Shown here in pieces: positions 1 through 22,410 of a DNA stretch of 24,308 bases. The notes below the pieces were generated by a model. It did no database searches. It saw only the letters and a list, made by a program, of their open reading frames with translations, and had not been told where the DNA came from. The DNA lies in IMG/VR virus record IMGVR_UViG_3300048571_000231, positions 1 through 24,308 of that record. One strand, given 5' to 3'. A program made the position numbers and the translations under genes. Position 1 is the first letter of the stretch. Every line of letters begins with the position of its first letter. This DNA is from a virus.

Positions 1-153
1 CAAGCGAAAACAGAGTCCGTGATCGCAAAACAAGTAGTCGAAGTGCTGGAGGCTAAGGTTAATGCCGTTGCTATTGCAACCGGCCAATCGAAGAAAAAAG
101 CAAACGATTTGGAAACGAGAGTTGCGGAAATCGCAGACAAGGTAGGTAGTTAA
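1..153 (+). CDS. C-terminal end of an unidentified protein (partial)
   Basis: An open frame enters from the left edge and ends at TAA 151-153, giving the last 50 residues of a protein whose start lies outside the window. The visible part is rich in Ala, Lys, Val and Glu, with no Pro and a single Gly before the end, so it is probably a long helix or coiled coil. It contains a KKKAND stretch followed by a heptad-like LETRVAEIADKV tail. The next gene starts at the base after the stop, so the two are probably co-translated. Too little is visible to name a family. The frame is trusted because it is open from base 1 and abuts a well-formed downstream gene. Confidence 0.6.
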   Translation, partial: QAKTESVIAKQVVEVLEAKVNAVAIATGQSKKKANDLETRVAEIADKVGS

Positions 154-327
154 ATGCCGATAGGAATTTTGTTCTGGGTACTAATGCTGATGTGGTTTTT
201 TTTCGGTTTGTACTGGAACCGAGGCGAAATCGCAGGTGGAAACTACGGCGTCGTGGGCGGCAACTTGTTGCTCTTCGTGCTGCTGATGTTGCTTGGTTGG
301 CGCGTTTTTGGCCCTGTGCTTCAATAG
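154..327 (+). CDS. Small two-helix membrane protein
   Basis: This 57-aa protein starts at ATG directly after the TAA of the previous frame. AAGGTAGG just upstream acts as the ribosome-binding site inside the end of the preceding gene. Residues about 4-20 are strongly hydrophobic, with a run of Phe and Trp. A short polar segment follows (YWNRGEIAGGNYG), and then a second Leu-rich hydrophobic segment at about 34-53. This predicts a helical hairpin in the inner membrane. I do not recognise the family. Its position among other small membrane proteins next to phage genes allows a holin or antiholin role, but nothing in the sequence proves it. Confidence 0.5.
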   Translation: MPIGILFWVLMLMWFFFGLYWNRGEIAGGNYGVVGGNLLLFVLLMLLGWRVFGPVLQ

Positions 328-374
328 GTAAGGTTCGACGATAGCAATAAACAACAACACAAGGAGCGGCGAAG

Positions 375-479
375 ATGCCGACAAACATGGACAATTGGCC
401 TCAGATAATTTCGGCAGTGGGATTTCCTATCTTCATGGCAATGGCAATGGCTTGGGCTATTTGGAAGGCCGCATTTTGA
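375..479 (+). CDS. Short membrane protein, YvrJ/holin-like N-terminal segment
   Basis: ATG 375 follows AAGGAG at 361-366 with ordinary spacing. The frame encodes 34 residues before TGA 477-479: a short polar start (MPTNMDNWPQII) and one hydrophobic helix with VGFPIF, then repeated Met/Ala and a final WAIWKAAF. The NVGFPI-type motif and length recall YvrJ-like peptides and the N-terminal membrane segments of small phage or planctomycete proteins of about 100 aa that continue into a coiled coil. The frame does stay open for 80 more codons after the TGA, and the joined product would have that architecture. It is therefore either a real mini-protein, a gene broken by a nonsense change, or one read through at TGA. 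Confidence 0.5.
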   Translation: MPTNMDNWPQIISAVGFPIFMAMAMAWAIWKAAF

Positions 480-719
480 TTTGGCACTGAGATAGGTAAG
501 CCAGCGGCAGTACAATTCGCCGCACACTTGCATGCAGTAGACATGACATTGGAAAGTTTCGCCAAGTCTATGTCGGAAGCGTCCCGGGAAATTAAAGGGA
601 TTAGGGATGATATGAAAGGTATTTGCAAAGTCAGTTACTGTGATGTTCACGGTTGTACGTCGCGCCATACCACTGGACACGAAATAAATCTCAGGGAGGC
701 AATGCCTGGTAAAACCTAG
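480..719 (+). pseudogene. In-frame continuation after TGA: helical tail of the preceding small membrane protein
   Basis: This frame is the same as that of 375-479 and is open from the base after TGA 477-479 to TAG 717-719. It begins FGTEIGKPAAVQFAAHLHAV and continues with an amphipathic helix rich in Lys, Glu, Ser and Met, ending in a Cys/His-containing tail (CDVHGC). Possible internal starts are TTG 528, ATG 543 and ATG 570, and none has a convincing ribosome-binding site. The stretch is therefore best explained as the second half of one 114-aa protein, separated by a single TGA. A sequencing error, a recent nonsense mutation or programmed readthrough would all fit. Trp at the TGA would be natural in the AAFxFG context. 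Confidence 0.45.
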
Positions 720-768
720 ATCAGATTGATTTCTAGACAACCCAACACCAGTTTGGAGGTAGTAATTG

Positions 769-2196
769 ATGCCAAAGAAGGAGGTATTTTGGGCAATCGC
801 TATCCAGTTATTGTTGGTAAGTATTGCTGCCGGTGGGGATGTTATTGGTCCCATCTACCAAGATATTTCCAATATGCCGGAGTATGATCGCAAATACATG
901 AGGTATTTGGATTTCAGCAATATACCTGTCGATAAATTGGACAAGTATTTGAAAGTCATTTCTGGGCATGTGAATGGATTGTCTAGAAAAACTCGAATAC
1001 AGATACCAGTGGTGATTGCCAAGACAATGATGAGATTGGATACCCGATACTACGGTTGGAATTTGAATGTTTGGGAAAAGTTCAGGGACAATGACCTATA
1101 TTTTCGAATTCAAATTCAAACCGATTGGCCTGGTGGGGTTTGGGAAGGTGATGGAAAGAATTACCCTAAAGGGGCTTTCAAGGTAAGTGGGGCCACTGGA
1201 TCGTATACCGCAATGGCACCCTGGGTTGCCGAGACACCTGAGCAATTGAAGAAATTGGCGTACATCCAAAAGGAAATCGGTGATAAAGCGTTTGTCTTGC
1301 GAGCCGATTGGTGGTTCGCCGATACCGCCGCTCAGGAAGATAAAGTGGTTGGGTATTACGGTCTTTTGGAAATAAAGGATCAAAAGGACTTTGAAAACGT
1401 GGCGAGGTTCAATGTCGCCACGGCTGCTGAATTGGAACATCGAAGAGTGGTGTTGAATTCAGGGATTGCCTTGCAGCGTAGAAGAGTCGAACGTCTTGCC
1501 ACAGTGAAGGGGGGACTGTGGCGGACGTTCGACAACAAGAAAGCCACCGGTAAAGGCAATCCAGCGGTATTCTTGGATGATGAGTTCACGTTTGATGCCA
1601 CGGAACAATTCGCTCCATTGCCAAACGGATTGCCAGTTTGGTTCCTGGCAAACAACAAAGGTGTTCGGCAAGATAAGGCACCTGACAATATCGTCGGTGG
1701 GGACACCACCACACATTCCAACGACACGCGATTGCAAGTAGGCATCTCGTGTTGGCGTTGCCATTCAGGGAAAGGGGAAAGTGGCATCAAGGAGGTACTT
1801 TCCGCTAAGATTCGAAAGATATTCGGCAAGGATTACGATCAATTGCAGGAAATCGATCGGCAGTACATGCGAGAGTGGCAGGAGGAACTCTCCACGGATC
1901 GTAGACGATTTGAGTTGGCAATCAAAGAAGCCACTGGAATGTCTTTCCAAGAATACGGGGAGGCGTATGGCGATTTCTATAGTTGGTATGAGGATGCCAA
2001 AATAGATCTTGCTAGGGCAGCGTTGGATCTAAATTGTACCGTGGAACAATTTAAGGCAGGGATGGAAAGTCAGGAAAAATTGACGGGACAACTCCATCCA
2101 GATCTTACTGTGATTCTTTCGGGCACACTGACTATGAGACAATGGGAAGAAGTCTACCCATTGGCACAGGCTACTATTCGAGGGATTCAACCATGA
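769..2196 (+). CDS. Exported c-type haem protein (single CxxCH), planctomycete-like
   Basis: This 475-aa protein starts at ATG 769, 9 bases after GGAGG at 755-759; the TTG codon just before it is not needed. Residues 1-23 form a Sec signal peptide: basic start MPKKE, hydrophobic core, and the AAGGD cleavage region. The mature protein is rich in Trp, Tyr and charged residues. CWRCH at residues 328-332 is a standard covalent haem c attachment motif, so the protein should be matured in the periplasm by the host cytochrome c machinery. The C-terminal 130 residues are highly charged and helical. No known enzyme active site is evident. It overlaps the next start by ATGA, so it is co-translated with phage-type genes. 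Large mono-haem proteins of this kind are common in planctomycetes, and their roles are mostly unknown. The haem motif is seen directly; export and haem loading are inferred. Confidence 0.7.
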   Translation: MPKKEVFWAIAIQLLLVSIAAGGDVIGPIYQDISNMPEYDRKYMRYLDFSNIPVDKLDKYLKVISGHVNGLSRKTRIQIPVVIAKTMMRLDTRYYGWNLNVWEKFRDNDLYFRIQIQTDWPGGVWEGDGKNYPKGAFKVSGATGSYTAMAPWVAETPEQLKKLAYIQKEIGDKAFVLRADWWFADTAAQEDKVVGYYGLLEIKDQKDFENVARFNVATAAELEHRRVVLNSGIALQRRRVERLATVKGGLWRTFDNKKATGKGNPAVFLDDEFTFDATEQFAPLPNGLPVWFLANNKGVRQDKAPDNIVGGDTTTHSNDTRLQVGISCWRCHSGKGESGIKEVLSAKIRKIFGKDYDQLQEIDRQYMREWQEELSTDRRRFELAIKEATGMSFQEYGEAYGDFYSWYEDAKIDLARAALDLNCTVEQFKAGMESQEKLTGQLHPDLTVILSGTLTMRQWEEVYPLAQATIRGIQP

Positions 2197-2435
2197 TTGT
2201 TCGGGCGAAATTCAAATGTACCCAAGTTGAGCCTAGCAAACAAAGTGAAGCTGAAGGGTGTGCCACGATTCGGTTATCGGCCGTTTACGGCAATGATGAT
2301 CCGAATCATGAAAATACCAGTTTTTTCCGTTGGACACCAAGTGGAGATATTTGTCTTGGCATAGTCAATGTCCAAGCGGCAAAGCAATTCGAAGTGGGAA
2401 AAGAATACTACGTGGATTTCACACCATGTAATTGA
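2193..2435 (+). CDS. Small conserved phage hypothetical protein
   Basis: This 80-aa protein starts at ATG 2193, overlapping the TGA of the preceding gene (ATGA). The sequence opens MIVRAKFKC, has LSAVYGND and WTPSGDI in the middle, and ends EVGKEYYVDFTPCN. From memory, this resembles a family of short cytosolic phage proteins with a V-RAKF start and a YYVDF end, found near virion genes. I know of no demonstrated function. It has no signal peptide, unlike the genes on both sides, which makes the cluster look mixed: a phage gene between two exported cargo genes. An upstream in-frame start within the previous gene is less likely because the ATGA junction recurs throughout this genome. Confidence 0.6.
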   Translation: MIVRAKFKCTQVEPSKQSEAEGCATIRLSAVYGNDDPNHENTSFFRWTPSGDICLGIVNVQAAKQFEVGKEYYVDFTPCN

Positions 2436-2448
2436 AGGAGGTTCAGCC

Positions 2449-3147
2449 GTGAAAACGTTAGTTTCCATTGTCGCCTTTATTTCATGTGGTACCATGATAT
2501 TGGCGAACGATTGTCGTGTTAGAGCCGTGGTACACGCACCAGCAGCGAGAGTGTATTCGGCGCCAATTGTTCATTCGCAAGCATACGCGGCACCAGCCTA
2601 TGTGGCACCAGTGGCGTATAATAACTACGTGGCAACGTATGTAGCCGTTCCATTGGTTGTGCCAGCGTACAATGTATTCTATGGGGGGAATGACAATGGC
2701 ACGAAAGATGAAATCCTGAGACTGCGGGATGAAATCAGATCCATGCGGGATACTTTTCGTGCCCCTGCTCCCGTTGCTCCGATGCAGCCACCGGTAAATG
2801 ACGGACCTATTCGTGTTCCGGCGAACCTCAGTGAAGCTGTGGGGGCCTCATGGGGGGTGGGGAGACAGATGCCAAATCCGACTACCGGGCTTAGACAGCA
2901 GGGGCAAGTGCTGCACGACGGCGTGAAAATTCTCACAGCCTCGTGTTCGAAGTGCCATGATGGCACAATCGCAAAGACGAAAGGGGGTGGGGTTGTACTT
3001 ACGGAAGGTGGGGTGTTGGTGGCTTTGACCGATTCCCAAATGTTGGCAATCGTTAGGGAGATTTATTCAGGCAGGATGCCTAAGGGAAGTAAACTTACTG
3101 ATGCCGATGTTGGCACGGTAATAGAATGGGTTGACACAAGGAAATGA
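2449..3147 (+). CDS. Secreted cytochrome c-like protein (class I, C-terminal haem domain)
   Basis: The start is GTG 2449, preceded by GAAGGAGG at 2434-2441, giving 232 aa. The annotated order is: a signal peptide at 1-21 ending MILAND; a low-complexity Ala/Pro/Tyr/Val region at about 30-80; a short charged coiled coil (DEILRLRDEIRSMRDTF); a Pro-rich linker; and a C-terminal cytochrome c domain. CSKCH at residues 166-170 binds haem covalently, and Met210 in GRMPKG is well placed as the distal axial ligand, followed by a C-terminal helix (ADVGTVIEWVD). This fits a class I monohaem cytochrome for periplasmic electron transfer. It is the second CxxCH protein in three genes. The downstream gene begins at the end of this one. 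The haem domain is a confident call; its role in a phage is unknown. Confidence 0.75.
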   Translation: MKTLVSIVAFISCGTMILANDCRVRAVVHAPAARVYSAPIVHSQAYAAPAYVAPVAYNNYVATYVAVPLVVPAYNVFYGGNDNGTKDEILRLRDEIRSMRDTFRAPAPVAPMQPPVNDGPIRVPANLSEAVGASWGVGRQMPNPTTGLRQQGQVLHDGVKILTASCSKCHDGTIAKTKGGGVVLTEGGVLVALTDSQMLAIVREIYSGRMPKGSKLTDADVGTVIEWVDTRK

Positions 3148-3155
3148 GGTTCAAC

Positions 3156-3710
3156 ATGAAACGGGTTTTCGCATTGTTCGTTCTTACCGCGTTTGGCGTT
3201 GGTATGATTGCTAGTGATGCTTTGGCAAACGACTATGGCCAAATGCAGGTGAGGCAACGCTTTTTCCAACCGGTGCGACAATACTACCAGCCTGTACAAC
3301 AGGTGATTCAACAGGCACAACAGGATTATTGCCAACCTGCCCAACCTGTTCAACAAGTGATTCAGCAGGCACAACAGGACTGTCAACCTGTTGAACAGGT
3401 GTTTCAACGACAGGTGTATGCTCAACCTGTTTTTCAACGACAGGTGTTCGCGCAACCGGTAGCCTATGCTCAACCTGTTTTTCAACGACAGGTGTATGCC
3501 CAACCTGTTTATGCTCAGCCCGTGTTCGCCCAGGCGATCCAAGGCTATAGTTATGGGCAGTCTTTTCGTTCGCCGATTCGAAGTGCGATTTTCGGCGGCG
3601 GGTTCGGTCGTGGCTTGAACATCAATATCGGTGGGGGTAATCAATTCCGCCAACGCGGGCCGATAGGCAACGTGAACCGTGTCGTGGTTCGCCAGCGATT
3701 GCCCCGCTGA
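3156..3710 (+). CDS. Secreted Gln-rich repeat protein
   Basis: Two ATGs are possible, 3144 and 3156. I choose 3156 because GAGG at 3147-3149 is correctly spaced for it and the signal peptide then begins MKRVFALF. Residues 1-25 form a signal peptide ending ALAND. The mature part (about residues 40-130) consists of imperfect repeats with QPVQQVIQQAQQD and QPVFQRQVYA units, and it includes single Cys residues in the first two units. The C-terminal 50 residues are Gly, Arg and Asn rich (FGGGFGRGLNINIGGG). The composition suggests an unfolded or surface-adhesive extracytoplasmic protein. It follows the cytochrome gene almost without a gap, so the two are probably made together. Planctomycete genomes carry many such secreted repeat proteins; no function can be assigned. 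Confidence 0.6.
   Translation: MKRVFALFVLTAFGVGMIASDALANDYGQMQVRQRFFQPVRQYYQPVQQVIQQAQQDYCQPAQPVQQVIQQAQQDCQPVEQVFQRQVYAQPVFQRQVFAQPVAYAQPVFQRQVYAQPVYAQPVFAQAIQGYSYGQSFRSPIRSAIFGGGFGRGLNINIGGGNQFRQRGPIGNVNRVVVRQRLPR
3280..3535 (+). repeat. Imperfect tandem repeats within the Gln-rich gene
   Basis: Two kinds of repeat are visible. The first two units share CAGGCACAACAGGA and begin with CCTGTWCAACARGTGATT. The later units contain CAACCTGTTTTTCAACGACA followed by GGTGT, present at least twice exactly and once in part. Each later unit carries an ACCTGT and an ACAGGT that are reverse complements, so each copy could also form a small hairpin. The repeats keep the reading frame, and there are no unique spacers, so this is coding repetition and not a CRISPR array. 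Confidence 0.7.
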
Positions 3711-3727
3711 GTGAGTAATCCATCCTA

Positions 3728-3805
3728 GCAATGATCCCTATTGGGCGATTGGGGCATTGCGATGGGTTGGACGGGTGGCGATTCAGAAATGGGTTGCCAC
3801 CCCGT
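3728..3805 (+). terminator. Two adjacent hairpins in the intergenic gap, possible terminator
   Basis: The 170-base gap between the Gln-rich gene and the next start holds no supported gene. It contains GCAATG (3728-3733) pairing with CATTGC (3755-3760), extended inside by CCC/GGG. A second stem pairs ACGGGTGGC (3771-3779) with GCCACCCCGT (3796-3805), with one bulged C. The second hairpin is followed by TCTTGATTC, which is only moderately T-rich. This would separate the cytochrome group from the following genes. It may be a weak intrinsic terminator or an mRNA processing site. Confidence 0.4.
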
Positions 3806-3880
3806 TCTTGATTCTTTGCAAACTGTTTTGGTTCTTGATTGGTTGGTGGTTGCTTTTTGTTGTTCATGGGGAGGTAAAAA

Positions 3881-4213
3881 ATGGACACGTTTTTAATGTG
3901 GTGTGCACCGTGGCTTTTACTTGGGGGTCCGGCGATTTTTGTCATCGGGCATGCGGTCATTTACTGGGTGGATCGCCGAAGGCAACAGGTCTGGGATCAC
4001 ACGGCGAGAGCGTTTCACAAGCAGCGAAAGGCTCTTTCCTCGGCGTTTGAAAATGGCAAAAAGGAAGGCATCGCTCAGGAATTCGCTCGCCTCGAAAAAT
4101 TGCGAACCCTCGAAGAACCCGCCCCTGTTAAGGCTTGCCGTCGGCGGCGAGCAGCAGGTAGATTCCAACGGCGTGCGTCGTCCAACATTTGTATTCGTTC
4201 AAATCAGGGGTAA
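3881..4213 (+). CDS. Single-helix membrane-anchored basic protein
   Basis: This 110-aa protein starts at ATG 3881 after GGGGAGG at 3870-3876. Residues 5-29 form one hydrophobic segment (CAPWLLLGGPAIFVIGHAV). A charged helical region follows (about residues 32-80), with many Arg, Lys and Glu, and then an Arg-rich tail containing CRRRRAAGRFQRR. The tail would stay in the cytoplasm under the positive-inside rule. I do not recognise the family. The size, single N-terminal helix and coiled region are compatible with a spanin-like or holin-accessory protein, but there is no decisive motif. An alternative overlapping frame (3903-4256) lacks a ribosome-binding site. Confidence 0.5.
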   Translation: MDTFLMWCAPWLLLGGPAIFVIGHAVIYWVDRRRQQVWDHTARAFHKQRKALSSAFENGKKEGIAQEFARLEKLRTLEEPAPVKACRRRRAAGRFQRRASSNICIRSNQG

Positions 4214-4218
4214 ATTCC

Positions 4219-5091
4219 ATGGCAAAAAGAAAATCGCTAAAGTCTGGCAAGAATGATTTTCAGGCTTGCTCGATTAAGACGCTTCCCGAAGAAATTCTAA
4301 TTGAAGCGTCAGAAACAGCGGTATTCATAAATCCTGCCAACGCGGTTGCGATCATGGCGGCGCTTGGCTTTGGTTTCACGATGCTGCCACCTGCCTACAT
4401 CGCGGCAATCACCAGTAAATACTGGGGTCCAAAAGTCATGCTGACGGTTGGCTTCATGGAGTCGATCACCGATGAAATCGCCAATAGAATCATCGGCTAT
4501 ATGAACCGTTGGAAAGATCGGGGTGCGTCGGTACTCTTTACCCGGACGAAGACCGATCCCCAAGTTAGAATCACAAGATCAGGCGACGGGTACTGGTCTT
4601 ATCTTGGTACCGACATTCTGCACGTCCCAAAAAATCAACCTACGATGTGCCTATCGGGAATCACGATGCGTACTTCGGATGCCGAATGCGAGAGGGTGAT
4701 CGTCCATGAGGCAGGGCACACTTTGTCCTTCCCTCACGAGCATATGCGTAGGGATTTGGTGCAACTTCTAGATCGTGAAAAAACTATTGCCGAATTCATG
4801 CGGACCCAAGGCTGGTCTAGACAAGAAGTAATCAATCAGGTATTGACACCACTGGATGAAGCCTCACTTATGTCTACGCCAGTCGATCAAGATTCCCTGA
4901 TGTGTTACCAAATTCCAGGGAATTGCACGAAAAGCGGACAGCCTATTAAGGGAGGGTCCCGTCTTAGTGAATCCGATTGGACTTTCGCTGCCAGGAGCTA
5001 TCCGCCATCTACGGGACCGATCGATCCACCGCCTACGGCTAGGCGTCTTGTAGTTGAGTTTACCGGCGATTATAGAGTGCTCACCGCGTAA
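4219..5091 (+). CDS. Astacin-like (M12 family) zinc metallopeptidase
   Basis: This 290-aa protein starts at ATG 4219 with AGGGG upstream, 5 bases after the previous stop. The zinc-binding motif is H163-E-A-G-H167-T-L-S-F-P-H173-E, matching the astacin/metzincin pattern HExxHxxGFxHE except that Ser replaces the usual Gly. Glu164 would be the catalytic base. The expected Met-turn follows at residues 226-230 (SLMCY, Met228 and Tyr230), matching astacin SxMHY except for Cys in place of His. Upstream segments such as DGYWSYLGTDI fit the metzincin beta-sheet. The N-terminus is polar and basic (MAKRKSLKSGKN), and no standard Sec signal is seen. It should cleave proteins, perhaps host envelope protein or virion precursors. 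The enzyme class is clear; the phage role is inferred. The Ser-for-Gly change may affect the helix turn but not metal binding. Confidence 0.85.
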   Translation: MAKRKSLKSGKNDFQACSIKTLPEEILIEASETAVFINPANAVAIMAALGFGFTMLPPAYIAAITSKYWGPKVMLTVGFMESITDEIANRIIGYMNRWKDRGASVLFTRTKTDPQVRITRSGDGYWSYLGTDILHVPKNQPTMCLSGITMRTSDAECERVIVHEAGHTLSFPHEHMRRDLVQLLDREKTIAEFMRTQGWSRQEVINQVLTPLDEASLMSTPVDQDSLMCYQIPGNCTKSGQPIKGGSRLSESDWTFAARSYPPSTGPIDPPPTARRLVVEFTGDYRVLTA

Positions 5092-5119
5092 AGAAACCAA
5101 TAACGAATCGAGGTGACGC

Positions 5120-5515
5120 ATGGAAACCGCTCTCGCTTTTTCCCTGGCAATCTCCCTCAGTACGGCAGCCGAAACAATGGAGTTGTACCCTCAATTCCCA
5201 AGCTACGGCGATTGTGCGAAAGTGGTGGCGTGGTGCGTGAAAGAAACTTGCGACATCGACCACGAAATCACGCGCGCGCAAAGTCTGCTATCCGGCTGGG
5301 ATTTAGAGATTGAGTTGCCCGCAATAAATGTTCTTCGTGAGCGGCAACGAGGACTAAATGAGGCCCGTGAGGTATGGTATTGTGCCTGGTGGCTCAAGAC
5401 TGTGCTCAGTGAAACTTATCCACTGTTCGTGCAAACAGTGCACCACAAATTGAGATCCATGCTTTCCGAGGACGATTTCGAACGGGGGCGGCTGCCGCTG
5501 CCATACGCACGATAA
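5120..5515 (+). CDS. Unidentified 131-aa protein
   Basis: ATG 5120 is preceded by GAGGTGA at 5110-5116. The 131-aa product begins with a weakly hydrophobic Ala/Ser/Leu stretch (residues 2-17) that could be a poor signal peptide. The rest is mainly helical and charged, with Cys in YGDC, AWCVKETCD and WYCAWW, and several Trp residues. No catalytic motif or known domain is recognised. It lies between the metallopeptidase and a holin-like membrane protein in the same orientation. Its base composition is more GC-rich than that of the capsid genes, as is that of its right neighbour. A role in lysis or as a peptidase partner is only suggested by position. Confidence 0.5.
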   Translation: METALAFSLAISLSTAAETMELYPQFPSYGDCAKVVAWCVKETCDIDHEITRAQSLLSGWDLEIELPAINVLRERQRGLNEAREVWYCAWWLKTVLSETYPLFVQTVHHKLRSMLSEDDFERGRLPLPYAR

Positions 5516-5573
5516 AACCGGATTGGCGGGCCGGGTAATTCCCGCCGAAACTGCAATAGGAGAGGATTTACCT

Positions 5574-5951
5574 ATGTGGTTCAACTCATTGAAGTGGGTT
5601 GCGATTTTCGCGGGTGTTGCCTTTGCCATTATTGGCGTTGGCGCAGTCGCCCTCTTTCACGCGGTCTCGATAGGGACCGTACCTGTGTCGGTCGTGGCTG
5701 AATGGTATGCCTGGGCGAATGCTTGGCACACCTACCTTGCTGGGTTCGCTGGAGCTTACCTTGTGTCGGGACCATTGGCCCGATTTGGCGTGCCCGCTCT
5801 TTGGAATATGGCGTGGTCTCGCGTGATTGCCGGAATGCAATCGGTGATGAAAGCCGCGCAGCCTCCCGCTGTAGACATGGAAAAGATGGTGAGGGAGATC
5901 GTGGCTGCCCAACTTGAGCAAGCCACTTCACCAAAAATCGTGCTGCGTTAG
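5574..5951 (+). CDS. Holin-like multi-helix membrane protein
   Basis: The start is ATG 5574, preceded by AGGAGAGG at 5559-5566, giving 125 aa; the longer frame from 5523 lacks a signal. Residues about 7-30 form a strong transmembrane helix, and about 48-68 form a second (HTYLAGFAGAYLVSG). The segment at 70-92 is amphipathic. The C-terminus is a charged helix with EKMVREIVAAQLEQ, followed by a short basic end. The size, two N-terminal helices and charged cytoplasmic tail fit a class II holin or a small membrane-organising protein, but there is no diagnostic motif. It is the last gene before the regulatory gap, and a hairpin follows its stop. Confidence 0.5.
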   Translation: MWFNSLKWVAIFAGVAFAIIGVGAVALFHAVSIGTVPVSVVAEWYAWANAWHTYLAGFAGAYLVSGPLARFGVPALWNMAWSRVIAGMQSVMKAAQPPAVDMEKMVREIVAAQLEQATSPKIVLR

Positions 5952-6180: not shown

Positions 6181-7668
6181 ATGGCACAAGAATTTCAAAA
6201 TATCCGCTTTACCTTGAATGCTGCGGCAAAAGTGCGGTATTCGAAGTTGGAAGGAAAAGACTATGCCGTGGTGCCCACGGTAATGTTGGTGGAAGGGGTG
6301 CATTACGGTAACATGGGTCCATTGTTTTATCGTGGCTCCACAATTGGTAGAAACACGGAAAACTGGAACCACAAACCGGTGGTGAACTATCATCCTGAAA
6401 TTGCCGGAAAAAAAGTCAGTGCGGCGAATCCAGCGATTCTGGAAAAGCAACGAACTGGGTTTGTCTTGAACACCCAATATAAAGCCAAGTTGAAAACCGA
6501 ATCTTGGCTTGATATTGCCAAATGTGAAATAGTGGACGTTCGCATTATGGAGCATGTTCGAAATGGCACGCCGATGGAAGTGTCCACTGGACTATCTTAC
6601 ACCCCAGACAATAAAGTCGGTGTTTGGAATGGTGAAGAGTATTCCTCGGAAGTGATTGAAATAGTCCCAGATCATCTAGCGTTATTGCCAGATCAAACTG
6701 GGGCTTGCAGTCTCAAGGATGGTGCCGGTTTGCTTGTGAATGTGGCGGATGATTTTCCCCCACAATTGAGCCTGGATTTCAACGCTAAGATAAAAGAACA
6801 GTTATCGGCATTGAGATTGATGGTTCAAAATGAAATGTCCAATGACGATTTGTTTAGCGCTTTGCTGCGAACCGTCAGAGCCAGTTTGGAAACATTTGGT
6901 ATATCTTGGGATGGATATATCGTCGATGTGTTCCCAAAGTTCGTGGTGTATTCGTCCCGTGGTACTTTGTACAAAGTCGCCTATAAGGCAAGCGATATGC
7001 AGGCTACCTTATCTGGCGATCCCGTAGTGGTCGTTCGAAAGTACAGTTATGTTACCGAGAATGGATTTTCAGTGAATGTCGCTGGTGATCCCATTCCAGA
7101 ACTCCAAAAGGAAGAAATCAAGATGGCAACCAATCAGTTTGATCCGAAGCCTATTGTGGATGGCCTTATCCTTGCCAATGCTTTCCCCGAAGGTGATCGT
7201 GAATTTCTTATGACCCAGCCGAAAGATCGATTGGATAGATTCGTGGAAATGGTTGCCAACAAGAAGGTACCTGTTGCCAACACTGTTCTCAAGGAAGTGG
7301 TCATCACGCCACAACAAAAGAAATCGAACGATGTCGCGGCGTATCTGTCCAATAGCGATATGCCACAGGAAATGAAGGCATTGATTTCTAATGCGCTGGT
7401 GCAACAGGAATCGCAGAAAACCAAATTGGTGGATGCCATTCTTGCCGTGCCTACCAATCGTTTCCAGAAAGAATACCTTGTTACTGCCGATGTTCAGGTG
7501 CTTGAAGGCATGCTTGAACTTGCCACCAATTCGCAACAATCTCACCAATCAAATGGTGGTGGGTCGTTCTTCGGTGCCAATACGGGACCTTCCATTCTGA
7601 CACCCAAGAAGCAACAGGCAGCCAATTCTGCCAATGACGATTTCCTAGAGATTCTCGAAACCCCGTAA
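6181..7668 (+). CDS. DUF2213-type prohead protease with C-terminal scaffold-like domain
   Basis: This 495-aa protein starts at ATG 6181 after AAGGGAGGG. Residues 1-185 resemble DUF2213 phage proteins thought to be capsid maturation proteases. Visible landmarks are NWNHKPVVNYHPE, RTGFVLNT, a GTPMEVSTGLS segment and a conserved DHLALLPDQTGACS segment. His in DHLALL and Ser in EVSTGLS are candidate catalytic residues by analogy with herpesvirus-type prohead proteases. The middle (about 200-310) is less clear. The last 180 residues are helical and Gln/Asn/Lys rich, ending in a Gly/Ser linker and a charged tail, and look like a scaffold. An internal ATG with its own ribosome-binding site lies at 7123. 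The decoration and major capsid genes follow directly, as expected. Confidence 0.75.
   Translation: MAQEFQNIRFTLNAAAKVRYSKLEGKDYAVVPTVMLVEGVHYGNMGPLFYRGSTIGRNTENWNHKPVVNYHPEIAGKKVSAANPAILEKQRTGFVLNTQYKAKLKTESWLDIAKCEIVDVRIMEHVRNGTPMEVSTGLSYTPDNKVGVWNGEEYSSEVIEIVPDHLALLPDQTGACSLKDGAGLLVNVADDFPPQLSLDFNAKIKEQLSALRLMVQNEMSNDDLFSALLRTVRASLETFGISWDGYIVDVFPKFVVYSSRGTLYKVAYKASDMQATLSGDPVVVVRKYSYVTENGFSVNVAGDPIPELQKEEIKMATNQFDPKPIVDGLILANAFPEGDREFLMTQPKDRLDRFVEMVANKKVPVANTVLKEVVITPQQKKSNDVAAYLSNSDMPQEMKALISNALVQQESQKTKLVDAILAVPTNRFQKEYLVTADVQVLEGMLELATNSQQSHQSNGGGSFFGANTGPSILTPKKQQAANSANDDFLEILETP
7123..7668 (+). CDS. Possible nested scaffold protein from internal start
   Basis: In the frame of the DUF2213 protein, ATG 7123 is preceded by AAAGGAAG at 7107-7114, 8 bases upstream. 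It would give a 181-aa product starting MATNQFDPKPIVDG. The predicted helical, charged, Gly-free composition suits a scaffold, and the terminal NGGGSFFGANTG linker plus acidic end could contact the capsid protein. Phage lambda makes scaffold Nu3 from an internal start within protease gene C, so the arrangement has precedent. No separate scaffold gene is seen between the protease and the capsid gene, which supports the idea. It is an inference from start context only. Confidence 0.4.
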   Translation: MATNQFDPKPIVDGLILANAFPEGDREFLMTQPKDRLDRFVEMVANKKVPVANTVLKEVVITPQQKKSNDVAAYLSNSDMPQEMKALISNALVQQESQKTKLVDAILAVPTNRFQKEYLVTADVQVLEGMLELATNSQQSHQSNGGGSFFGANTGPSILTPKKQQAANSANDDFLEILETP

Positions 7669-20703: not shown

Positions 20704-22410
20704 TTGGCAATTCCATGCCGAGGCTGCCTCGGAGAAGGCCCGGACGCCCAATATGGCGTTGCCGCCTCTGCGTCTAGCCTTGTTTCCGAGTGGCTCTTGT
20801 CCGGCATCAAAGACCCGATGCCGACGCCGGTTCACGATCCGAAAGATTGGACCTGGCACACGCGGTTCGCGACGACTGCCGAACACGTCGCGGCACTAGA
20901 AGCCCTGGGACAAATGGACCTTCCCCCTCACGAGGCCAAAGGCGAGGGCATGGTCTACGTAGGTGGTGATATTCCAGGGGAACCATACAAACAGTATGGC
21001 TTGGGTGTAGCTGCCGGAATCCACATGGCTCGATGGTCTGGGTATCACGGACCCATCGAGTGGTGGTTCGATTCGAAAAAGGAAACCGCTCGCCAGTACG
21101 ACATGCGGGACCTGGGAGACGTTCGAATTAGGGATATTCAGGATTTGAATCCATTGCCAAGAATGCGTGTAGGGTGGCCGAATAAACTCACGGCAATCGT
21201 CCATAGTGCATTTCGCCGCGTGTTGTTTTTGGACGCGGATGCCCACCTTGTGGCATCACCGGATACCCTGTTCTCTTTGCTGGACGAGGTAAGTTTTGTT
21301 CATTGGACGAAAAACGATATGCGGGCAGTAGTCGCCAGAGCTTGGCCTCATGGTGGTTTCGGTGGGAGTTTTGGTATCACGGGAGGTCAACTACTGATCG
21401 ACACGATAGCGGCTCGCAGATTGGTGGTAATAGCTCATTGGGTGAATCAACATGCTGATTATTACTATCCTTCCAAAACGCACAAGCAGGCTCAATATTA
21501 CCTGTTCGGCGACGAAGATACGTGGCCTTTGAGTTTTGCCGTCTGCAAACACTACGGGTATGTTTTCAAGACCCGAGACCTAGGCAAAACAGTCTACAGT
21601 AAGAACGGGTGCGAGTTTTCCCATGAGGGAAAAACACGAATTGCCCATTGGTCCAACAACAAAATGAATTCGAGCGGATGGCACCCGTTGCCGGAAAGCC
21701 GGTTCAAGTGTTCGGAACAAGCCGTGGCGATGAGGAACGAAGCATTGCGAGGCAGGGACCGAAAGGTCGTGGGCGCTCCCGCGCAGTGGCGATACCAAGA
21801 AGGGACTACCGATCTGAAGAGGTTCGGCATCATTGCCACGCGGAACGAATACCGATTGCCGGACACGTTCGAGCCAGAAGACGTGATTCTTGACGTAGGT
21901 GGAAATCACGGTACCTTCACACATGCCTGCCATCAGCGAGGTGCTGGGAGAATCGTAAGCGTGGAACCGCATCCAGACAACTTGGTAATCCTGCGGCATA
22001 ATTGCCCCTATTCGGAAATACATGAGGTAGCCCTATGGTCGGAAGAAAACAGGGACAAACTCACGCTCATCGATCACAGTACCACCAACACAGGCGACGC
22101 CAGATTAGGTGTAGGAGGCATGGCGGTCACGGTCGAAGGATTCGACACATTCGTTCACCGTGTTCGTGGTGACCAGCCTATTCGCTTTCTCAAGCTAGAT
22201 TGCGAGGGAGCCGAGATCCCAATTTTGATGACTTCGCAACGCCTCAGACAAGTCCAAGAGATTGCCTGCGAGGTACATACCGAAGCTTCACAGTGGGACA
22301 TGATTATCAAGGCAATACGCGGCAGACTTTCCGATGAGGGATTCAGTATAATCACTGAAGTGGAACAATTCAAAGGGCAGGGACTGATTTTCGCAAAAAG
22401 AGGTAATTAA
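20704..22410 (+). CDS. Glycosyltransferase-FkbM methyltransferase fusion
   Basis: This 568-aa protein starts at TTG 20704, five bases after a perfect AGGAGG. Residues about 80-340 form a GT-A type glycosyltransferase: MVYVGGDIP entry, PNKLTAIVHSAFRRVLFLDA leading to the D177-A-D179 metal-binding motif, GGFGGSFGITGGQLLIDT as acceptor loop, and GDEDTW at 269-274. Mannosyl- or galactosyltransferase families have this layout. Residues about 385-568 are an FkbM-type SAM methyltransferase: VILDVGGNHGTF (motif I), VSVEPHPDN (motif II), and FLKLDCEGAEIPIL (motif post-III). The two enzymes would transfer a sugar and then methylate it. The short N-terminus has CRGC. It sits among tail genes in a GC-rich island. 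Likely targets are tail proteins or host surface glycans; which one cannot be told. A single polypeptide is supported by the continuous frame. Confidence 0.85.
   Translation: MAIPCRGCLGEGPDAQYGVAASASSLVSEWLLSGIKDPMPTPVHDPKDWTWHTRFATTAEHVAALEALGQMDLPPHEAKGEGMVYVGGDIPGEPYKQYGLGVAAGIHMARWSGYHGPIEWWFDSKKETARQYDMRDLGDVRIRDIQDLNPLPRMRVGWPNKLTAIVHSAFRRVLFLDADAHLVASPDTLFSLLDEVSFVHWTKNDMRAVVARAWPHGGFGGSFGITGGQLLIDTIAARRLVVIAHWVNQHADYYYPSKTHKQAQYYLFGDEDTWPLSFAVCKHYGYVFKTRDLGKTVYSKNGCEFSHEGKTRIAHWSNNKMNSSGWHPLPESRFKCSEQAVAMRNEALRGRDRKVVGAPAQWRYQEGTTDLKRFGIIATRNEYRLPDTFEPEDVILDVGGNHGTFTHACHQRGAGRIVSVEPHPDNLVILRHNCPYSEIHEVALWSEENRDKLTLIDHSTTNTGDARLGVGGMAVTVEGFDTFVHRVRGDQPIRFLKLDCEGAEIPILMTSQRLRQVQEIACEVHTEASQWDMIIKAIRGRLSDEGFSIITEVEQFKGQGLIFAKRGN

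Follow-up and report, generated by a model that had tools for sequence, protein, structure and literature searches.

A conserved three-gene phage module encoding two predicted exported c-type haem proteins and a secreted repeat protein

We found that two phage genes encoding predicted exported c-type haem proteins, termed CytA and CytB, belong to a conserved module with a third gene, which encodes a secreted repeat protein. The order CytA, CytB, secreted repeat protein is kept in all 14 virus records assembled here (13 distinct ones). We propose, with a probability of roughly 0.45, that the module provides a periplasmic or envelope electron-transfer pair that would act in the infected cell. 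The DNA from which the analysis starts (the window) is the whole of IMG/VR virus record IMGVR_UViG_3300048571_000231, of 24,308 bases, which is probably a genome fragment.

CytA (positions 769 to 2196, plus strand; 475 aa) has a single CxxCH site, CWRCH at residues 328 to 332. CytB (2449 to 3147, plus strand; 232 aa), a monohaem cytochrome c of exported type, has CSKCH at residues 166 to 170 and a candidate ligand at Met210; its gene starts with GTG, preceded by an AAGGAGG-type site. Between them lies an 80-aa phage gene (2193 to 2435, plus strand; PHROG 6978, 4e-11), which overlaps CytA in an ATGA at 2193 to 2196. CytB is followed by the gene for a secreted, repetitive protein containing Gln, Val, Tyr, and Phe (3156 to 3710, plus strand). 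An earlier note, made from the sequence, had described two phage-borne haem genes of exported type, the Met210 ligand, the phage-type 80-aa gene with its overlap, and a large first protein with one haem site and no recognised family, and each of these points held. The Pfam check it had suggested placed the second protein in Cytochrome_CBB3, above the cut-off, and gave no match for the first. The note had also taken the pair for isolated cargo; the phage location stands, and the one-off pair gives way to a conserved three-gene module whose third gene (3156 to 3710) had been missed. The unit runs to position 3710, because the third exported-type gene belongs to the module in all relatives.

Head and tail genes lie downstream in the window, from about 6.2 kb onward. 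By PHROG match they encode a head-protease-type protein, the major capsid protein (PHROG 771, 1.6e-32), and the tape-measure protein (PHROG 1533, 3e-49). A membrane protein with a hydrophobic N terminus (5574 to 5951, plus strand), encoded behind the module and ahead of the head genes, is a positional neighbour of the module only. A search of the window for tRNAs and Rfam elements found none. Further along, the gene at 20704 to 22410 encodes 568 aa, of which residues 378 to 551 match a phage methyltransferase family (PHROG 8156, 6e-15), and the N-terminal part has, by eye, the look of a glycosyltransferase.

Chance is ruled out as the source of the CxxCH sites: such a site arose in 5 of 20,000 shuffles of the CytA sequence and in 18 of 20,000 shuffles of the CytB sequence, and it is present in 0 of the 24 other window genes examined. 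Export was called with a simple hydrophobicity index over the first 40 residues. The maxima of CytA (2.58) and CytB (2.39) correspond to predicted signal-peptide-like N termini; among the 24 control genes, the membrane protein at 5574 to 5951 reached 2.74 and the others 1.98 or less. Both proteins are predicted to be exported and to have a haem attached.

Scans of IMG/VR with single window proteins returned no relatives. A tblastn search with CytA against the INPHARED phages gave one match, LR756511.1 (26% over 79% of the query, 5e-25), a 595-kb uncultured phage in which CytA (CIVCH) is followed by an exported CAQCH protein and then by a secreted repeat protein. The family was reached only through this genome and then through profiles built from that match. 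A profile match on a 73-kb phage contig (L009; CytA 36%, 5e-81) has a CAGCH cytochrome behind it and, after that, a secreted repeat protein; later profiles recovered L015, L016, and L025 to L031 through CytA and L017 to L024 through CytB. Besides the window and LR756511, the 14 records include 12 other contigs from IMG/VR, with lengths of 18.8 to 343 kb. Two of these, L026 and L027, stem from a single data set and are apparent duplicates, which leaves 13 distinct records.

The CytA profile matches all 14 records, and the CytB profile matches 13, always next downstream of CytA on the same strand, with small inserted genes only in the window, in L009 (a different small gene, DUF5662, at the position of the 80-aa gene), and in L030 (an extra Tyr-rich exported gene). 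In the 14th record, L031, an exported CAKCH protein is found by eye at the place of CytB. This linkage is not just an effect of record selection, because L021, L022, and L023 were found by the CytB query and missed by the CytA query, yet carry CytA beside CytB. The identities of CytA and CytB are correlated (Mantel r 0.96, p 0.0001, 13 records), which is the expectation for a unit inherited together.

The earlier note had allowed for a chimeric assembly of host and phage sequence near positions 1 to 5950 and for homologues confined to bacterial chromosomes. A chimera is ruled out, since 13 more virus records, drawn from several data sets, contain the same module, and these records likewise place homologues outside bacterial chromosomes. 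Bacterial and archaeal genome contigs, scanned twice with just two short peptide patterns each time and thus weak as evidence, returned no homologue; among plasmids, the only matches were to Neorhizobium and, weakly, to Paracoccus. Similar proteins are presumably present in planctomycete chromosomes.

The third gene comes after CytB in 14 of 14 records, with profile matches that are inflated by low complexity (the same profile caught one CytB at 3e-6). Tyr plus Phe make up 9 to 27% of its product in the 12 of 14 proteins measured, and Tyr alone varies from 2 to 16%. Exported-type N termini are common to all three module families. In L031, a probable HNH gene (by eye) precedes the third gene. 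Upstream of the module, ten of the 14 records keep another exported protein, and seven keep a "KFGP" protein; the window begins too near CytA to reveal conserved upstream genes. In the jumbo group, the region ahead of the module contains a conserved gene with, by eye, the look of a tRNA-His guanylyltransferase (Thg1-like; L002 16675 to 17559, L015 6940 to 7746, L025 6022 to 6843, and L026 6972 to 7841).

We then analysed the CytA sequences. CytA of the window matched nothing in Pfam, PHROG, or NCBIfam, seven CytA members gave no convincing match to curated families, and no peroxidase family matched. A known family was thereby ruled out as far as Pfam, PHROG, NCBIfam, and PDB sequence searches reach (best PDB profile value, 0.097). 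Two of the seven members weakly matched FixO/CcoO, the monohaem subunit of the cbb3 oxidase (PF02433), but the best E value was 0.14, and the neighbours scanned contained no oxidase gene, nor any haem-maturation or reductase gene. Every CytA has exactly one CxxCH (14/14), and the alignment of the 14 members contains no invariant His or Met beyond that site; the invariant positions are Tyr, Arg, Trp, Asp, and Asn. One column has His in 12 of 14 members, with Tyr111 in the window and Thr in L009. Because a second invariant His or Met is missing from CytA, as judged from alignments at 19 to 36% identity to the window, and because it belongs to no Pfam family, CytA may be a haem enzyme. The N terminus is hydrophobic in 13 of 14 members; that of L031 is weak (1.49) and shows a Tat-like start by eye, which is odd for a c-type cytochrome. 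Lone copies of CytA (CIACH or CVACH) also occur apart from the main module, at L008 8725 to 10631, L038 3093 to 4904, and L039 2694 to 4453. Near the lone copy in L039, a 187-kb phage contig, an exported protein (6647 to 7120) has, by eye, a haem-handling look of the HugZ/pyridoxamine-phosphate-oxidase type. Altogether, CytA is a putative new haem-protein family, with a ready partner in CytB.

CytB is better placed among known proteins. The window copy belongs to Pfam Cytochrome_CBB3 (PF13442; 9e-7, 29.6 bits against a 27-bit cut-off) and has the CxxCH and Met ligand of the cytochrome c domain (PF13442 and PF00034), but it differs from such proteins by a long linker rich in Tyr, Val, and Pro, and the copies of LR756511 (18.9 bits) and L009 (17.1 bits) fall under the PF13442 cut-off. 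Each CytB has exactly one CxxCH, and Met210-Pro211 is invariant, in 14 of 14 records. Of the five pairs tried for each gene, four were computable and one was saturated; dN/dS was 0.118, 0.110, 0.101, and 0.081 for CytA and 0.227, 0.187, 0.228, and 0.119 for CytB, values that are rough because synonymous distances are near 1 or above. By this measure, both genes are under purifying selection. AlphaFold2 models made from two-row alignments had a mean pLDDT of 33.8 for CytA and 32.7 for CytB, too low to be informative on either fold.

The carriers are phage genomes, as seen from the head and tail genes of the window and from a terminase (PHROG 2) found in 6 of the 14 records. The four jumbo-type terminases are 52 to 79% identical to one another (blastp), and the terminase of the L009 phage gave no significant match to them (E value of 0.15 or worse), in a comparison covering five of the six, with G009 (L036) left out. 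The capsid protein of the window matched nothing in the other 13 records. Vertical inheritance accounts for the jumbo records, which have a common ancestry. Since these markers are not common to the window, L009, and jumbo lineages, the module must either have been transferred or have come down by very ancient descent during which structural genes were replaced. The CytA tree groups the window with L009 (100/100); it also joins the two longest branches, L030 and L031, whose placement is unsure. Judged by these markers, the carriers are several unrelated phage groups, some of them very large.

Further support for a CytA-CytB pair came from bacteria. The one bacterial homologue found is a 1157-aa c-type cytochrome of Neorhizobium petrolearium (NZ_CP123001.1, QEO92_RS29260), encoded on a megaplasmid and containing four CxxCH sites and a weak DUF4384 match. 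The CytB haem profile scores best on residues 368 to 450, the third cytochrome domain (15.7 bits, versus 0.2 and 2.0 bits on the first two cytochrome c domains), and the CytA profile matches residues 485 to 945 (4e-51), directly after that CytB-type domain. The protein thus resembles the module in having a CytA domain right behind a CytB-type haem domain, and it differs in being a single polypeptide with two extra cytochrome c domains on a megaplasmid rather than in a phage. That two phage neighbours form one bacterial chain is good evidence for a physical CytA-CytB pair; the fusion points to a redox partnership and is silent on the substrate. The plasmid cluster around it (L003 1068 to 9423) also encodes caspase-family, OmpA-family, and ferredoxin-reductase family proteins, and it might be a defence or cell-death cluster.

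Phages carrying cytochrome c genes are already known. In Kieft et al. 2021 (PMC8190135), SoxD, the cytochrome c subunit of sulfane dehydrogenase, is a phage auxiliary metabolic gene found in two data sets. The module resembles SoxD as a c-type cytochrome gene carried by phages, but SoxD works with a known partner, SoxC, in a known pathway and belongs to a known family, whereas the module belongs to no known pathway, brings CytA and a secreted repeat protein along, and occurs in several phage lineages. Of the 10 window genes compared with Pfam, none gave a SoxC-type match. The words cytochrome, haem, heme, and planctomycet do not occur in the main text of the huge-phage paper (PMC7162821), and a word search of PMC9875498 found no cytochrome. 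In the literature searched on phage cytochromes and planctomycete phages, mostly outside subscription journals and bioRxiv, exported electron-transfer proteins are seldom described as phage-encoded, and the conserved three-gene module with CytA is absent.

How might the module work? We propose that host machinery would attach the haems to CytA and CytB after export. CytB, a small His/Met monohaem cytochrome c, would then exchange electrons between the CytA haem and a carrier of the host. CytA would be the functional end, because its haem appears, from the alignment, to have no conserved sixth ligand and could form a catalytic or ligand-binding site. The third protein, secreted, repetitive, and containing aromatic residues and Arg, may act with the two at the cell surface, as its place in the gene order suggests. 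The role would be to keep redox flux going or to handle oxidants in the envelope during infection, and we prefer such redox support of the infected cell over envelope modification. A bolder version, in which the module is a phage-specific envelope redox system, seems unlikely to us: CytA would be a haem enzyme of a new family that, with CytB as its dedicated cytochrome c partner and the aromatic repeat protein, is passed between unrelated phages (genomes up to 595 kb) and oxidatively modifies the surface of the infected cell or its peptidases instead of feeding host metabolism.

Envelope remodelling is a rather doubtful alternative. Here CytA would be a peroxidase- or oxidase-like haem enzyme, fed by CytB, that oxidises or cross-links either the third protein or the wall of the host, perhaps so that competing phages are kept out or exit is prepared. 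This reading would explain why an exported-type, repetitive, aromatic protein is encoded behind CytB in every record, and it fits the want of a second invariant His or Met in CytA. However, the widely varying Tyr content of the third protein and the lack of a peroxidase family match speak against it, and low-complexity proteins may have other uses.

Peptidase genes led us to consider a protease-based unit for exit or host takeover, with the peptidases as effectors and CytA and CytB tuning their redox state or the envelope. In 12 of the 14 records the module has a peptidase gene next to it: papain-like C1 in seven (one of them, in L029, cut by the contig edge), C39-like in two, subtilase/sedolisin-like in two, and astacin-like in the window (4219 to 5091, plus strand, downstream of the module; Pfam Astacin, 1.1e-5). 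The window gene also matches NCBIfam NF050131, "beta-glucuronidase AbsR1" (8.7e-15, 54.6 against a 650-bit cut-off), and a name based on that match may be off. The large subtilase/sedolisin-like genes (L009 8618 to 9919 and L031 15231 to 16643) are of one family, lie just after the module in otherwise different phages, and have small hydrophobic proteins nearby; protease-based lysis is possible for these loci. In addition, each of the three lone CytA copies, which belong to LR756511 and to the L026 and L021 phages, has an exported C39-like gene as its neighbour, and the Neorhizobium cluster includes a caspase-family gene. But the peptidase kinds differ, L030 has no adjoining peptidase, and L022 has only a C1-like gene about 9 kb off on the other strand. 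We regard the association as a lead and the protease-based unit itself as quite unlikely.

Two further explanations are highly improbable. Haem proteins in or on the virion would suit the structural genes near the module in the window and the putative ones (by eye) near that of LR756511, but all three families have exported-type N termini, and haem is attached to CxxCH outside the cytoplasm, where virions are not assembled. Haem or iron handling, with haem bound so as to store or capture it, fits the haem sites and the HugZ-like gene near a lone CytA, but not the His/Met set of an electron-transfer cytochrome kept in all 14 CytB proteins, and a haem bound covalently at CxxCH lends itself poorly to reversible storage.

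We thus favour an electron-transfer pair in the envelope. Three genes that keep one order and are under purifying selection, in phages with unmatched structural genes, argue for a repeated phage advantage in the cell envelope and suggest that the carriers alter redox chemistry in the outer layers of infected cells. CytA would define a new haem-protein family with its partner in hand, and the module makes the effect of huge and ordinary phages on envelope redox chemistry a testable question.
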